From a virus, in the IMG/VR virus record IMGVR_UViG_3300030012_004032, positions 1 through 41,346 of that record: a stretch of DNA of 41,346 bases. One strand, written 5' to 3'. The notes under the pieces are model-generated. The model was given only the letters and a program-made list of their open reading frames with translations, did not search any database and had not been told where the DNA came from. This document shows positions 3,719-22,581 of this stretch, piece by piece. Position 1 is the stretch's first letter. Each line of letters begins with the position of its first letter. Both the position numbers and the translations under genes were made by a program.

Positions 3719-4096
3719 ATGGCAAGTTTATTTGAACTTCAGAATCCTAACTTTGGTCAATTAACAAAGACAAAAGTTATTAAAACTGAAAATGGTGCTC
3801 ATACATTAACGACTGCTGAATTAATTGAAGGCATAGTTGACGGCACACCTACAGGAAACAGAGCAGTAACAACACCTACTGCTGCTGAAATACTGACTGC
3901 TCTTGGTGCTCAAAATAAAATTGGGCAAACATTTGAGCTTACAATCGTAAACAAAGCAACAGCCACTCATAAATTTACTTTGACTGCTGGGTCAAATGTA
4001 ACAATAGTTGGTGATGCAGATGTAGCAGCAGCTTCATCTGGAACTTTTGTTTTCAGAGTTACAAGTACAACTGCAGTTTCTGCTTTTAGAAAGTAA
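3719..4096 (+). CDS. Putative head decoration protein
   Basis: 125 aa, Thr/Ala-rich and predicted all-beta; it ends with ASSGTFVFRVTSTTAVSAFR. Begins three bases after the capsid stop, so it is co-expressed with it. Related small beta-proteins with a TAAxxLxALG ... FELTIVN ... FTLTAG layout follow the capsid gene in many marine phages and probably decorate the head or are fibre-like. Assignment rests on position and composition. Confidence 0.6.
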   Translation: MASLFELQNPNFGQLTKTKVIKTENGAHTLTTAELIEGIVDGTPTGNRAVTTPTAAEILTALGAQNKIGQTFELTIVNKATATHKFTLTAGSNVTIVGDADVAAASSGTFVFRVTSTTAVSAFRK

Positions 4097-6230: not shown

Positions 6231-6650
6231 ATGGCTATAGTTAGAGGTGAAGAAGGTGCTATTCATTTTGATGATGGGACTGGATCGACAGCACTTGTAG
6301 CAGGAACAACAAGCTGGAACTTAGATGTAACTAAAGAGCTTTATGAAATTACTGCACACTCTGACAAGTCAAGAAAATTTGGAGGAGGTTTGATAAGTGC
6401 TTCTGGATCTTGTGAAGTTCAATATCAAGCAACTTCAGGTGATCCCTTATCAGAACTACTAAAAGGTTGTTTCAAACAAGAAGATGACGGTACTAATGCT
6501 AAATTTATTTTGTTCTTAGATGCTTCGAGCGCTAAGAAATTTACATTTGACGGTATCATATCTGGAGGTAATTTCACTTCAACTGTAGGTGAACTTGCAA
6601 CTGCTACTATAAACTTTCAAATGACTGGTGACATTACTCAGGATATTTAA
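6231..6650 (+). CDS. Major tail (tube) protein
   Basis: 139 aa; starts MAIVRGEEGAIHFDDGTG and has TSWNLDVTKELYEITAHSD and a C-terminal TATINFQMTGDI strand. This is the compact beta-sandwich pattern of siphovirus tube proteins (W-x-L/I-x-x-x-x-x-x-x-E-I-T at the first strand pair). It sits between the tail terminator and the chaperone pair and has its own candidate promoter. Confidence 0.85.
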   Translation: MAIVRGEEGAIHFDDGTGSTALVAGTTSWNLDVTKELYEITAHSDKSRKFGGGLISASGSCEVQYQATSGDPLSELLKGCFKQEDDGTNAKFILFLDASSAKKFTFDGIISGGNFTSTVGELATATINFQMTGDITQDI

Positions 6651-7003
6651 TGGCAAATACTAGAGCAATTGATTTACTTACTTCTTCTTTTGATTTAAAT
6701 GAAAGAAGAAAATTTACAGTGAAAGATAAAAATGGTAATGATTTATTAGATTTATATTTCGCACCTATAACACGAGCAGATAGACTTCTTGTTCAAAAAA
6801 CATCTGGGGAGGATAATTTAAAACTTTCAACACAGATGCTTGTTCATAAAGCACAAAATGAAGACGGATCACCTGCTTTTATGCAAGGTGATGTAGCAAG
6901 ATTAAAACGTGAACTGCCAGAATCACTTTTAAATGAACTTGAATTATTTTTATTTGGAATTAATGAAGAGGGGGAAGATATTGATCAAGTAAAGGAAGAT
7001 TAA
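6650..7003 (+). CDS. Tail assembly chaperone, gpG-like
   Basis: 117 aa, starting MANTRAIDLLTSSFDLNERR. In the canonical slot between tube protein and tape measure, where lambda G/GT chaperones guide tape-measure packing. The overlapping -1 frame remains open from 6985 through 7176 and encodes a gpT-like extension. The zero frame crosses A-AAG at 6991-6994, nine codon bases before the TAA at 7001, with a purine-rich GAGGGGGA upstream (6968-6975), so a fraction of ribosomes probably shift. Confidence 0.82.
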   Translation: MANTRAIDLLTSSFDLNERRKFTVKDKNGNDLLDLYFAPITRADRLLVQKTSGEDNLKLSTQMLVHKAQNEDGSPAFMQGDVARLKRELPESLLNELELFLFGINEEGEDIDQVKED

Positions 7004-7176
7004 AGGGGGATAATTGGCTTTACTTCGAATTTTTCCTAGCAACAGAACTAAAAATGACTGTCAGTAGGTTAAGAAAAGAATTAACTGATGCAGAACTTTT
7101 ACATTTTGCAGCTTATTATGAATTAAAGGCTGCCCATGAAAAGCAGCAGCTAGACAGTATTAAAAATAAGAGGTAA
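6994..7176 (+). CDS. gpT-like extension of the tail chaperone (by -1 frameshift)
   Basis: The -1 frame relative to the gpG-like gene is open from 6985. After slippage of the Lys codon at 6991-6994 it would add 60 residues (GRLKGDNWLYFEFFLATELK, then MTVSRLRKELTDAELLHFAA and YYELK), ending three bases before the tape-measure ATG. The fusion would be about 175 aa. The extension has the short helical pattern and W/YYE motif of T domains. An internal ATG at 7054 could alternatively start a 40-aa protein. The slippery site is a simple A-AAG rather than a full heptamer, so efficiency is uncertain. Confidence 0.65.
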   Translation, partial: GRLKGDNWLYFEFFLATELKMTVSRLRKELTDAELLHFAAYYELKAAHEKQQLDSIKNKR

Positions 7177-7179
7177 GAA

Positions 7180-9252
7180 ATGGCAGTAGCAAGTGTAAGT
7201 ATTGAGGTTTTAACAAATAAAGCGGTTGGTGCTGTTAATAAATTAAAAAATGCAAATAAAAAATTAACTCGTACTTTTACTGTTTTAAATAAAAGAAGTA
7301 AAGGATTAACTGGTAATTTTAATAAATTACAAAAAGTTTTAGGCACAGCAGCCTTGACTGTCTTTGGACAACAGTCAATTAGTGCTGCAGCCAATTTTCA
7401 AAAGCTCGAATTAAGACTTAAATTATTAACAGAAGCAACTGGTACTTTTGCTGAATCACAAAAAATAGCTGCTGATGCTCAAAAATTATTTGGCATCAGC
7501 ACGCTTGAAGCTTTAGAAGGAGTTACAAATATAACTGCTCGTCTTGCACCTTTAGGTATTGGAGTTGAAGATATAAGAACAACATTTATAGGATTTAACA
7601 CTGCTGCAAAACTAGCAGGTGCCTCAACGATTGAAGCAACAAATGCTTTTAGACAATTAGCACAAGCTCTAGGATCTGGCAGATTACAAGGTGATGAATT
7701 TAGAAGTATAAGTGAACAAATACCAACTCTTTTGAAGCCAGTAGCAGATGAACTCGGTACAACAGTTGGTAAATTAAAAGAATTTAGTAGTCAAGGAAAA
7801 ATTACAAGTGATGTAGTCATAAGAGCATTAAGCAAAATAGAAAAGCAGGGTGCACCCATGTTAAAAGCTTTGCTTGAAAATGATCCAACTCAAGTATTTA
7901 AAAATCTACAAAATGCTACTGAAGATTTTAGTATTGCAGTTGGTGAAAGTTTACTGCCAGCGACAAAAACTGGTACTGTTGCGATTACAGGAATAGCAAG
8001 AATAATTGATGTATTACCTTCGGCTTTTGTTTCTGCAGCAGTCGCTATTGGTACAAGTATTATTGCATTTACAGCATTGAAAGGACCTGTAGTTGCTGTC
8101 AAAGGAACGCTTATTGCTTTAGGTAAAACTATAACTTTACTGACTGGTGTTGCTGCAGGACCTTTAGTTGCTGCAATTGCTGGCGTAAGTTTAGTTGTAA
8201 CAGCTTTGACTGGGCATATAATTAAATTAAGACGTGCTAAAAAAGAATTTACTAAATTACTTGTAGATTCTTCATCTAAAGAATTACAAGCAGCAATAAG
8301 AATAAGAGAAAAAGAATTAAAGGTCGAAGAAACAAGAGCTAAAAATTTCAGATTTTTTAAATCAAGAAATAAAAAAAAGATTGAATCACTTCAAGAAGAA
8401 ATTGATCTTTTGAAAAATAGAAATAAACAAGTAAAAAGTACTGAAGACAAAGATGCAGAGGATATTAGAAAAGAAAATGAATTATTAGATGTTTTAAATT
8501 TTCAAAAAAATGGTTTTCCAGAAGGTTCTGAGGAAAGAAAAATTGATGAAGCTACAAAAAAATTAAGACAAAGAATACAAGTTAAACAAGCCGAGTCTGA
8601 AATTGATGCACGACTTTTGGAAAATCAATTTGAATTTGAGAACTCAATGAAAGAAGCAATGTCAATAGAAAATGATATGTTAAGGTTGCAAAGAGCACAA
8701 GCTTTGCTTGCAGATTTTAGAATTAACAGACAAAAAATATTAAATGGTGAATTAGAAACTGCTGTTGAAATATCAAAAGATTTAGGTCAAACATTAGAAG
8801 ATAGTTTGGTTGAAAATATAAAAGGAGCAATAAAAGGTACAAAAACTTTTGGTGATGCAATGTTAAGTGTATTAGATAGAATTAGAGATAAAATATTAGA
8901 TAAAGCATTAAGTAAATTATTTGACGGATTTGCAGAAAAAGCTGGAGGCTCATTTCTTGGCAATTTATTTGGAAAATTATTAGGTAGAGCAGGAGGTGGC
9001 TCAGTAACAAGAGGTAGATCTTTTTTAGTAGGTGAAAACGGTCCTGAAGTTTTCACTCCAGCTAGTTCAGGAAACATAACTAGTAATAAAGAATTAGGTG
9101 GTACAACTAATATCACTATTAATATTGATTCTTCTGGCACTTCAAGAGAAGGTGATGACGGAAAGATGGCTGATTTTGCTACAGAAATAAGCAGTATAAT
9201 TCAAGCTGAAATTATTGATCAAAAAAGGACGGGAGGTTTATTAGCATCATGA
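7180..9252 (+). CDS. Tail tape measure protein
   Basis: 690 aa. Residues about 70-220 form the tape-measure N-terminal domain (FQKLELRLKLLTEATGTF ... RLQGDEFRSISEQIPTLLK ... GKLKEFSSQGKITSD). A hydrophobic stretch follows at about 285-345 (GTSIIAFTALKG, AAGPLVAAIAGVSLVVTAL), then a long charged coiled coil (about 370-520) and a Gly-rich C terminus with FLVGENGPEVFTP, typical of tape measures. At 690 residues it predicts a tail of roughly 100 nm by the usual 1.5 A per residue rule. It starts four bases after the T frame and overlaps the next gene. Confidence 0.93.
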   Translation: MAVASVSIEVLTNKAVGAVNKLKNANKKLTRTFTVLNKRSKGLTGNFNKLQKVLGTAALTVFGQQSISAAANFQKLELRLKLLTEATGTFAESQKIAADAQKLFGISTLEALEGVTNITARLAPLGIGVEDIRTTFIGFNTAAKLAGASTIEATNAFRQLAQALGSGRLQGDEFRSISEQIPTLLKPVADELGTTVGKLKEFSSQGKITSDVVIRALSKIEKQGAPMLKALLENDPTQVFKNLQNATEDFSIAVGESLLPATKTGTVAITGIARIIDVLPSAFVSAAVAIGTSIIAFTALKGPVVAVKGTLIALGKTITLLTGVAAGPLVAAIAGVSLVVTALTGHIIKLRRAKKEFTKLLVDSSSKELQAAIRIREKELKVEETRAKNFRFFKSRNKKKIESLQEEIDLLKNRNKQVKSTEDKDAEDIRKENELLDVLNFQKNGFPEGSEERKIDEATKKLRQRIQVKQAESEIDARLLENQFEFENSMKEAMSIENDMLRLQRAQALLADFRINRQKILNGELETAVEISKDLGQTLEDSLVENIKGAIKGTKTFGDAMLSVLDRIRDKILDKALSKLFDGFAEKAGGSFLGNLFGKLLGRAGGGSVTRGRSFLVGENGPEVFTPASSGNITSNKELGGTTNITINIDSSGTSREGDDGKMADFATEISSIIQAEIIDQKRTGGLLAS

Positions 9253-19665: not shown

Positions 19666-21297
19666 ATGTCTAACACAATAAAACACAAAAGAGGTACTAG
19701 TAACCCATCTGCTAGTGATTTATCAGTAGGTGAATTAGCAATAAGATCTGATAATGGTCATTTATTTACTAAAACTAATTCTGGAAGTGTTATTGAGCAT
19801 AAAGATATTACTAATAACAATCAACTTACAAATGGTGCAGGATATCTCACATCATCTTCTAACTTAAATGCTAGTAAATTAAGTTCTGGTACAGTCAATG
19901 CTGCTAGATTACCAAATCATTCTGCAGCATTATTAACTTCTGGGACAATTCCTGCTGCAAGAATAGGTAGTGACGCTATCGACCAAAATAAAATAGCAGA
20001 TGACGCTGTTGGAGCAGCACAACTAGTAGATGGTAGTGTTGGAACAACTCAACTTGCTAACAATGGGGTGACTTTTGCAAAGTTAGAAGATGTAGCACAA
20101 AATCGAATTTTAGGAAGAACAGCTAGTGGAACAGGAGACTGTCAAGAATTAACTGCTGCTAATGTAAGAAGTCTTATTAATGTCGCTGACGGTGCAAATA
20201 ATATTACTAATAATAATCAATTGACTAACGGTGCTGGATATATAACTTCTCAAAGGTCTGTTGAGTCAGTTCAAGATATTGTTGGTGATATGGTCACTGG
20301 TAATTCCGAATCTGGAATTACAGTGACGTATCAAGATTCTGATGGGACGTTAGATTTTTCTGTTGCATCACAAACTGATCAAAATTTTACAACAGCATTA
20401 AAAAATAAATTAGACGGTATAGCATCTTCAGCTACTAATGTAACTAACAATAATCAGTTGACTAACGGTGCTGGCTATATAACTGCAAGTAACTCAGCAA
20501 TCACAAATAAGATGCCTAAAAGTGGAGGTACTTTTTCTGGAACAGTTAATTTAGGAGGAAATGACATAGACAATGTCGGCAGAATGACAGGTAACGGATT
20601 AACTTTAGAAGACGACGGAGAAAGCTCACCTACTTTTCAACTACTTACAGATGATGAAGCTCCGTACGCTATGCAAATCAGCAACAGTACATATTCAAAT
20701 CAGCAAGTAGGCTTACTAACTTTTGTAAAAAATAACGGTGATGCTGAACTTTTACACGCTGGAAACGGAGAGTTTAAAGATTTTTCTATAGGAACTTCAT
20801 TGGGAATTGGTTTTGTAACTTGCATAAAAATAGACGGATCAGAACAACAAGTTGAACTTTATAACGGAGGTGTAAGAAAATTTGAAACTACAAGTACAGG
20901 AGTTGAAGTAACTGGTAATTGTAAAGCTGGTAGTTTTAGAAGTGATGATTTACTCCCACCAGTTTTTGAGTTTACTAACGGAAATAAGGCTGGGCAATTA
21001 AGTGTTGGCAATGCAAATATAGACGGAACTGGCACTGTAACTTTAGAATCTGATTTTAATGTATCTTCAATTAGTGATTCTGGAAGTGGTGTTTATGATG
21101 TCAGCTTTGATGAAAACTATAAAAACAGTCATTATATTGTTACAGCAGAAAGTGGATTAATATCTTCAACTAGCAGCGCATCAACTACAGTTGATATAAG
21201 AAATATGTCTAGTTCTGGTTTTAGATTATTAATTGAAGATGTTGATGCAGGTTTTATTGATGTAGACTACATTATGTTTAGCATCTTTGAAAATTAA
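19666..21297 (+). CDS. Long tail fibre with NNNQLTNGAGY repeats and tip domain
   Basis: 543 aa. N-terminal attachment segment (NTIKHKRGTSNPSASDLSVG ... ELAIRSDNG), three copies of TNNNQLTNGAGY (about residues 49-60, 181-192, 260-271), an SSGTVNAARLP/SGTIPAARI shaft segment, and from about residue 440 a C-terminal domain almost parallel to the stand-alone gene at 15904 (GQLSVGNANIDG; DFNVSSISDSGSGVYDVSF). The NNNQLTNGAGY motif is very common in cyanophage fibres. Probably a receptor-binding fibre. Confidence 0.82.
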   Translation: MSNTIKHKRGTSNPSASDLSVGELAIRSDNGHLFTKTNSGSVIEHKDITNNNQLTNGAGYLTSSSNLNASKLSSGTVNAARLPNHSAALLTSGTIPAARIGSDAIDQNKIADDAVGAAQLVDGSVGTTQLANNGVTFAKLEDVAQNRILGRTASGTGDCQELTAANVRSLINVADGANNITNNNQLTNGAGYITSQRSVESVQDIVGDMVTGNSESGITVTYQDSDGTLDFSVASQTDQNFTTALKNKLDGIASSATNVTNNNQLTNGAGYITASNSAITNKMPKSGGTFSGTVNLGGNDIDNVGRMTGNGLTLEDDGESSPTFQLLTDDEAPYAMQISNSTYSNQQVGLLTFVKNNGDAELLHAGNGEFKDFSIGTSLGIGFVTCIKIDGSEQQVELYNGGVRKFETTSTGVEVTGNCKAGSFRSDDLLPPVFEFTNGNKAGQLSVGNANIDGTGTVTLESDFNVSSISDSGSGVYDVSFDENYKNSHYIVTAESGLISSTSSASTTVDIRNMSSSGFRLLIEDVDAGFIDVDYIMFSIFEN

Positions 21298-21299
21298 AA

Positions 21300-21458
21300 A
21301 TGAATATTGAACATCTGCAGAATCAAATACAAGAATGGCAGAAACAAATAATACAGCAGAAAGAAAATGTTATTAGATTAGAAGGTGCTATTTCTGCTTA
21401 CGCTTTTTTAATTGATGAATATAACAAACAGGAGAAGAAAGAACCTGTAAAAAAGTAG
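21300..21458 (+). CDS. Small coiled-coil protein, 52 aa (zero-frame product)
   Basis: ATG at 21300, three bases after the fibre gene; starts MNIEHLQNQIQEWQKQIIQQ and continues VIRLEGAISAYAFLIDEY: a Gln-rich amphipathic helix. It ends CCT-GTA-AAA-AAG-TAG. The last sense codons form the heptamer A-AAA-AAG (21449-21455) directly before the stop, with AGGAG at 21430-21434, the same arrangement as the dnaX frameshift signal. A -1 shift appends a zinc-finger segment (next entry). Function unknown. Confidence 0.72.
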   Translation: MNIEHLQNQIQEWQKQIIQQKENVIRLEGAISAYAFLIDEYNKQEKKEPVKK

Positions 21459-21589
21459 AAGGAATACTTGTAAAAAACTGTCCAATTTGTTTTAAAGAAT
21501 TTAAAACAATGGAACAAAGAAAAAAATATTGCTGTGGTGCTTGTAAAACTAGATCAAGTAGAAGTAACAGAACTTTAAAAAAAATTTAA
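21455..21589 (+). CDS. Zinc-finger extension reached by -1 frameshift
   Basis: The frame entered after a -1 slip at A-AAA-AAG encodes 44 residues: VEGILVKNCPICFKEFKTME, then QRKKYCCGACK and a basic tail, TAA at 21587-21589. The C-x2-C ... C-C-x2-C arrangement with KKYC is a zinc-ribbon pattern found in phage nucleic-acid-binding proteins. The frame has no ATG, GTG or TTG upstream of the first Cys pair (open only from 21425), so frameshifting is the simplest way to express it. The fusion would be 96 aa: coiled coil plus zinc finger. Confidence 0.65.
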   Translation, partial: VEGILVKNCPICFKEFKTMEQRKKYCCGACKTRSSRSNRTLKKI

Positions 21590-21625: not shown

Positions 21626-21979
21626 ATGCTTAAAAAAATTCTTACAGTTGCAGCAATTTCTGCAATGTCAACGCCTGCTTTTGCTGGGTTCTATGTAAAC
21701 ATTGAAAACAATGGTTCATATACTGGCAATGAGTTCAACGGAAGTTCAACAGATGCTCATCTAGGTTTTGAAGGTAACAACGGTTTAGCTTCTTACTACA
21801 TTCAAGGTGGAGCAAATATCTCAAACCCAGACGGACAAGAATCAGCTACAAATTTCTCAGGAAAAGTAGGTGGTAACGTAGTTGCTTCTGAAAAAATTGA
21901 TGTTTACGGAGAATTTTCAATGGTCACAGATGAAACTAATTCTTACGGAACAAAAATTGGCTTGAAATATAAGTTCTAA
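21626..21979 (+). CDS. Secreted outer-membrane beta-barrel-like protein
   Basis: 117 aa with a clear Sec signal (MLKKILTVAAISAMSTPAFA, cleavage before G21). The mature part alternates polar and hydrophobic residues in strands and ends YGTKIGLKYKF; a terminal Phe is the usual outer-membrane insertion signal. Too short for a full porin (about 97 mature residues), so perhaps an 8-strand or partial barrel. Similar small proteins occur in cyanophages. Possible roles: superinfection exclusion or outer-membrane disruption at lysis. Confidence 0.72.
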   Translation: MLKKILTVAAISAMSTPAFAGFYVNIENNGSYTGNEFNGSSTDAHLGFEGNNGLASYYIQGGANISNPDGQESATNFSGKVGGNVVASEKIDVYGEFSMVTDETNSYGTKIGLKYKF

Positions 21980-22077: not shown

Positions 22078-22581
22078 ATGGAATACCCAGAATTTAATTT
22101 GCCAGATACAGATAATGTTCTCATTCCACCCACAACAATTTTTTACCCACCCCTAGCAGACGTTCCGTATCTAGATCCTCTTCTACTTCCAAGCTTGGAA
22201 CAGGTAAAGTCGGGCTTGGCAGATCAGGAAGCTGTTTCTGAAGACGAAGAAACATCCTCAGAGGAGGCAGAATCGCAGTTAAAGCAAGAACAAATACCGT
22301 TAAGCCTACCAAACTCCAAAGAACTTTTGTCAACTGATGAACCTATAGCTACTTTCAATATACCTCTTGTAGGGGAGTTTCCAATACCAGCGCCAGAAAT
22401 AATCGCATCAAGTGTAATAGCAGCAGGAACGGCATCTGTTGTTTCAGTAGCAGGTGGAGTAGCATTACAAGCAGTCGTGACACAAGTCAAAAAAATATTT
22501 AAGAAAATTTTTACAAAAATATTGAAAAAAGAGGTGGCAAACGTAAAAGAAAAAATTAAAATAAAAAAAGAGCAAGAATAG
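22078..22581 (+). CDS. Pro/acidic membrane protein with basic C-terminal helix
   Basis: 167 aa. N-terminal Pro-rich part (MEYPEFNLPDTDNVLIPPTT; FYPPLADVPYLDPLLLP), acidic middle (SEDEETSSEEAES), one hydrophobic span at about residues 108-134 (EIIASSVIAAGTASVVSVAG), then a strongly basic amphipathic tail (KKIFKKIFTKILKKEV). The N-terminal PEFxLPD-x-x-x-V-IPP-T-x-FYPPL pattern recurs in cyanophage proteins. The gene is the last of the rightward unit and faces the membrane/secreted genes at 22666-23769. A role in the cell envelope or lysis is plausible but unproven. Confidence 0.7.
   Translation: MEYPEFNLPDTDNVLIPPTTIFYPPLADVPYLDPLLLPSLEQVKSGLADQEAVSEDEETSSEEAESQLKQEQIPLSLPNSKELLSTDEPIATFNIPLVGEFPIPAPEIIASSVIAAGTASVVSVAGGVALQAVVTQVKKIFKKIFTKILKKEVANVKEKIKIKKEQE

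Follow-up and report, generated by a model that had tools for sequence, protein, structure and literature searches.

A conserved A AAA AAG heptamer as the probable -1 frameshift joint between a coiled coil and a Cys4 finger in viruses most likely infecting Prochlorococcus

Programmed -1 ribosomal frameshifting allows one start codon to serve two products, as in Escherichia coli dnaX, where the heptamer A AAA AAG is read with an internal Shine-Dalgarno (SD) sequence upstream (PMC5009743) and a strong stem-loop downstream, and where the shift gives the shorter product. In phages, frameshifting also appends Ig-like domains, for instance to the coat protein of T3 and in Lactobacillus phage A2 (PMC5009743). 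Most annotated phage cases concern tail assembly: in the SEA-PHAGES genomes used for PRFect, tail chaperones account for 2397 of the 2476 annotated frameshifts (PMC10885494). The type example is the lambda G/GT tail assembly chaperone, a late-gene -1 frameshift yielding a short and an extended form from a locus that precedes the tape measure gene. In Bacillus subtilis cdd, the shift site is accompanied by an adjacent stop codon and an upstream SD sequence. There and in IS1222, -1 slippage takes place at a 0-frame AAG, that is, at a single-codon A_AAG site (PMC5009743). The conserved locus described here, from viruses most likely infecting Prochlorococcus, appears to be a recoding site that belongs with none of the tail-chaperone, coat, or mobile-element examples.

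The stretch of DNA that we analyzed (41,346 nucleotides, 41.3 kb, hereafter the window) is that of a marine siphophage, with genes for a Mu F-like head protein, a Gp13-like major capsid protein, a TMP_3 tape measure, a JAB-type minor tail protein, a GpJ-like tip, a terminase, and a portal in siphophage order. The gene of interest starts at position 21300, between a 543-aa tail-fibre-like protein (positions 19666 to 21297, plus strand; phrog_13518, phrog_30390, and tail fiber phrogs 11355 and 892) and a cyanophage outer-membrane-like beta barrel, Phage_OMP (21626 to 21979, plus strand; PF24653, E = 1.6e-38). Window genes near the proposed frameshift site have similar counterparts in the Prochlorococcus phages P-SCSP2 and P-RSP2, and these neighbors make Prochlorococcus the most likely host. 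Further downstream, a small protein with a hydrophobic segment (22078 to 22581, plus strand; phrog_9426) has ∼73% DNA identity with podovirus P-SCSP2; its presence in both this podovirus and the siphophage window indicates that late genes are exchanged between tail types. Elsewhere in the window, a candidate second frameshift (6650 to 7176, plus strand) occupies the tail-chaperone position ahead of the tape measure gene (7180 to 9252). There, an open reading frame (ORF) at 6650 to 7003 overlaps a start-less -1 frame at 6985 to 7176 (...DNWLYFEFFLATELKMTVSRLRKELTDAEL...), and the overlap contains GTA AAG, of the A_AAG type, with GAGGGGG ∼15 nt upstream.

The initial annotation of the window had proposed that a 52-codon ORF ending GTA AAA AAG TAG is fused by frameshifting to a finger encoded in the -1 frame. 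The ORF was confirmed to the base: it spans 21300 to 21458 on the plus strand, encodes a 52-aa coiled coil, and stops at TAG (21456 to 21458). The heptamer A AAA AAG lies at 21449 to 21455 in the expected phase, with 0-frame codons AAA AAG directly before the stop, and the AGGAG reported 14 nt upstream of it was found at 21430 to 21434, a putative SD-like stimulator with a computed duplex energy of -7.4 kcal/mol. An open -1 frame extends from 21425 to 21589 and, as claimed, encodes CPIC...YCCGAC and a basic tail with no ATG, GTG, or TTG before the first Cys. Its coding part in the fusion (21455 to 21589, with the TAA stop at 21587 to 21589) reads VEGILVKN-CPIC-x13-CCGAC followed by the basic tail and is conserved as protein among relatives. 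The predicted fusion length of 96 aa was also correct; the computed pI of this protein is 9.5 versus 6.6 for the 52-aa form, and the basic tail has a charge of +8.7. Since trypsin cuts after the junction lysines, detection of the Lys-Lys-Val-Glu-Gly junction peptide proposed in the initial annotation needs another protease, such as Glu-C.

In-frame A AAA AAG occurs seven times in the 11,536 codons of the 48 ORFs of the window, and only one copy abuts a stop codon, for which ∼0.03 cases are expected by chance. In a single genome, such a coincidence is weak evidence by itself and suggestive only; the chance explanation is removed because the heptamer is conserved in relatives. A single-sequence search of IMG/VR with the fusion as the query returned no close relatives. 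Relatives were obtained through the neighboring gene at 22078 to 22581, which gave 80 loci, four of them (L038, L048, L053, and L083) with the finger. An alignment of these four fingers with that of the window identified 117 IMG/VR relatives, of which 80 were kept, and merging exact copies left 69 distinct loci, window included, with a coiled coil followed by a finger in the -1 frame (40 representatives at <90% identity, 22 at <80%, and 14 at <70%).

A AAA AAG was present at the junction in all 69 distinct IMG/VR loci whose finger is out of frame, and the 0-frame stop followed directly in 59 of them and 1 to 6 codons later in the remainder. Searching from the coiled-coil side, we found the heptamer together with the finger in the -1 frame in 61/63 records, while the other two, which are one sequence, had neither. 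The finger-less coiled-coil relative (L031/L231/L232) lacked the heptamer. Conservation in relatives had been named at the outset as a check, with a continuous single frame or loss of the heptamer with both frames kept as the contrary outcomes; the heptamer was retained throughout, neither contrary arrangement was seen in any relative, and the frameshift interpretation is thereby supported. The same data bear on a sequencing or assembly indel, or a decayed gene, with one continuous frame as the true gene. Homopolymer runs are error-prone and every finger-bearing relative comes from a metagenomic assembly, but the same break recurs in 69 distinct sequences, 40 of them at <90% identity, and never as a continuous frame, and decay is excluded by the selection on the -1 frame (pN/pS of 0.40, see below), so that we give this explanation practically no weight. 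Our searches of cultured phages returned generic HNH-type fingers alone (E of 0.04 or worse) and no coiled-coil match, GTDB genomes yielded nothing related to the finger, and in the literature, whose coverage was incomplete, we found no paper describing this site.

We then looked into codon choice at the junction. AAG makes up 35 of the 248 Lys codons (14%) elsewhere in these genes, and chance alone would place AAA AAG in ∼12% of Lys-Lys pairs; it was observed in 40/40 representatives. The first base of the heptamer is the wobble base of GAA, GTA, ATA, CAA, AAA, TCA, ACA, or GCA, thus covering Glu, Val, Ile, Gln, Lys, Ser, Thr, and Ala, and is A every time. After the slip, the -1 codon is GTA, GCA, GGC, or GGA, and this variation between Val, Ala, and Gly indicates that the closing G of the heptamer is kept, not the residue. 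Such constraints also weigh on transcriptional slippage, in which the polymerase rather than the ribosome would join the frames on the A run. The site is indeed an A run, 6 to 9 A long; transcriptional slippage usually occurs at runs of about 9, and the run here is shorter, with only 6 A in 20/40 representatives and 7 A in 18/40. Moreover, slippage of this kind has no need for a G after the run, for the 0-frame phase of the heptamer, or for SD enrichment, all features of a ribosomal shift, and we consider it very improbable.

The -1 frame evolves as a protein-coding sequence. In the finger region, its pN/pS is 0.40 and it has no stops, versus 1.56 and 1.38 in the other frames (31 sequences long enough for the analysis), and the finger alignment (A3) has invariant C, C, C, C, F, TMEQR, and Y. 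In a rival reading, the finger is an independent gene, whose translation after the TAG would depend on reinitiation or on a non-standard start codon. Three related fingers (L083, L108, and L170) do begin at an ATG in their frame and are not preceded by a coiled coil, and an ATA, ATT, ATC, or CTG codon lies between the heptamer and the first Cys in 62/69 loci. Yet ATG, GTG, and TTG are absent between the heptamer and the finger in 66/69 out-of-frame loci, the three exceptions being sporadic and 1 to 4 codons before the first Cys; in six loci (L038, L103, L104, L111, L048, and L053), near-cognate ATN/CTG codons are missing as well; and a separate gene leaves the invariant A AAA AAG unexplained. 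We therefore hold separate translation to be most unlikely. The stand-alone fingers have a different short N terminus, and in L083 the start of the finger gene (3778 to 3960) overlaps the upstream stop as ATGA.

SD-like sequences located 6 to 17 nt upstream of a slippery site are in the experimentally stimulatory range (PMC4066793), and the AGGAG of the window, at 14 nt, falls inside it. Among the 40 representatives, 26 have an SD-like sequence at 6 to 17 nt, versus 15 expected under synonymous shuffling (maximum of 23 in 200 shuffles), and 14 have no recognized SD at accepted spacing; anti-SD binding energy is strongest for 8-mers starting 14 to 18 nt upstream of the heptamer. The SD-like stimulator is thus enriched but not universal. 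Downstream, we found no strong conserved structure at the usual distance of 5 to 9 nt, and structure is weak overall (mean z of about -1 to -1.7). Within the part of the window that encodes the finger, there is a short, strong hairpin (21481 to 21515, plus strand; CCAATTTGTTTTAAA...TTTAAAACAATGG) that starts >20 nt past the heptamer, with a weak echo in the family consensus fold. We regard a conserved downstream stem-loop as a doubtful stimulator, being weak and too distant. As for decoding, examination of all 38 tRNA places found in one Prochlorococcus genome (MIT 9201) gave a sole tRNA-Lys, with the anticodon UUU. E. coli likewise has a single tRNA-Lys, and there A_AAA_AAG is highly shift-prone (PMC5009743).

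Taken together, the sequences argue strongly that a programmed -1 ribosomal frameshift joins the coiled coil to the finger, a reading to which we assign a probability of about 0.93; slippage itself and its efficiency are what we infer from them. We propose that the majority of ribosomes would stay in frame over A AAA AAG and terminate at TAG, releasing the 52-aa coiled-coil protein. In a minority, detained by the adjacent stop and, in the loci that have one, by the internal SD-like sequence, two tRNA-Lys would slip to AAA AAA, and translation would go on to produce the 96-aa protein with its putative zinc-binding finger and basic tail. As the coil is common to both forms, mixed oligomers would result, in a ratio set by the shift.

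We then analyzed the two parts of the protein. The a/d positions of the coil (I3 L6 I10 W13 I17 Q20 V24 L27 I31 Y34 I38 Y41) form a near-perfect heptad pattern, with 11 of 13 a/d positions hydrophobic, and the 52- and 96-aa forms would accordingly be expected to assemble into mixed oligomers. The 52-aa protein matches the coiled coil of phrog_580 weakly over residues 3 to 48 (E = 4.6e-5), a match that composition alone can give between coiled coils. The "zinc finger" of the initial annotation holds as a metal-binding CxxC-x13-CxxxC motif, which would be expected to bind zinc, but not as a member of a Pfam family at its cutoff. The best profile matches among 19 finger members, DUF2116 (E = 0.0033) and YacG (E = 0.027), both fall short of the family cutoff, and the finger of the window matched neither at E up to 0.5; HNH profiles among the phrogs gave weak matches, with E down to 9e-6. 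The AlphaFold2 model of the finger is of moderate confidence (pLDDT of 69), and has no significant fold match; a search of solved structures and Foldseek returned only chance C2H2-like pieces. Judged by its profile matches, the finger appears nearest to the treble-clef/YacG-type and HNH-associated Cys4 fingers and is not a recognized member of either. In the most economical guess, the extended subunit would bring the protein into contact with nucleic acid or with a protein of the host.

The heptamer and finger are found on different coils. By motif, the 69 coils fall into an EKQILEWQQ type (52 sequences), a TTEELxxEL...AILADR type (12), a third family with the same beginning as the EKQILEWQQ type but longer (3), and a fourth (2). 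In the finger tree, a minimum of 8 changes between coil families was counted, as against the 3 that would be enough. Averaged cross-family identity profiles were blurred by indels, and we thus compared individual pairs: L094 and L102 share an identity of 0.47 over the 15 nt that precede the heptamer and of 0.93 over the 15 nt that begin with it, and L148/L160 show the same pattern, less sharply. Family II coils of L142 (∼2480 to 2510), L159, L163, and L168 have two serial A AAA AAG, three codons apart, before the finger. At the matching position, the cultured phage P-RSP2 has a coiled-coil gene that by eye resembles family II, without finger or heptamer. Tail-type markers tested in 16 records revealed a TMP_3 tape measure in 5 and a T7-type head-tail connector in 1 (L142, on a 35.5-kb contig), so both tail types carry the heptamer-finger cassette. 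The genes ahead of the coiled-coil gene in relatives are fibre-like or small and tail associated, and Phage_OMP comes next after the finger in 16 related loci.

These observations are compatible with two recombining blocks, an upstream one that would comprise the tail fibre and a lineage-specific coiled coil and a downstream one that would comprise the heptamer-finger and the following genes. The heptamer might then be the standard joint of an exchangeable system in which an obligate frameshift fixes the dose of the finger on any coil, the finger-bearing subunits providing a tail-fibre-linked complex with its contact to the host or the genome; we rate this as conceivable, at less than even odds. 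The likeliest role of the protein would be that of an accessory to the tail-fibre/late-gene block, with finger-bearing subunits that may contact nucleic acid or host protein, but about this role we are slightly more doubtful still. If the frameshift is true, one gene should yield two proteins at a set ratio, standard gene callers would give the 52-aa protein alone and miss the finger, and the swapping of coils at the heptamer would constitute a natural experiment on why phages keep a frameshift rather than a plain domain fusion.

Among known systems, two chaperone assignments were considered and rejected. The lambda G/GT chaperone is similar in its late-gene -1 frameshift and its short and extended forms, but the gene at 21300 comes after the tail fibres and not between the major tail protein and tape measure genes. 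A tail-fibre chaperone of the T4 gp57A type was also discarded for the coil, as no such Pfam family was detected at E up to 1, and we take the likeness to gp57A to be limited to size, coil, and position. The fingers of DUF2116, YacG, and phage HNH endonucleases have a similar Cys4 arrangement; here, the HNH catalytic part is absent. Whereas cdd and IS1222 rely on a single A_AAG codon, the present site is a full tandem A_AAA_AAG. It shares with dnaX the heptamer, its phase, the upstream SD, and a single start from which two products are predicted (PMC5009743). It differs in its weak downstream structure, in the stop directly next to the heptamer, and in the form made by the shift, which would be the longer one. 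The resemblance to frameshifted Ig-like domains lies in the C-terminal addition of a small mobile domain to a fraction of a protein by a -1 shift (PMC5009743). In the Ig-like cases, the carrier is a coat protein and the frame relation is mixed (in-frame, -1, and +1), whereas here the carrier is a small coiled coil, the extension is a 44-aa Cys4 finger without an Ig match in Pfam, and 69/69 loci are at -1 via one identical heptamer. The dnaX heptamer and the logic of an appended domain are thus known; what differs is that a single heptamer is used without exception.
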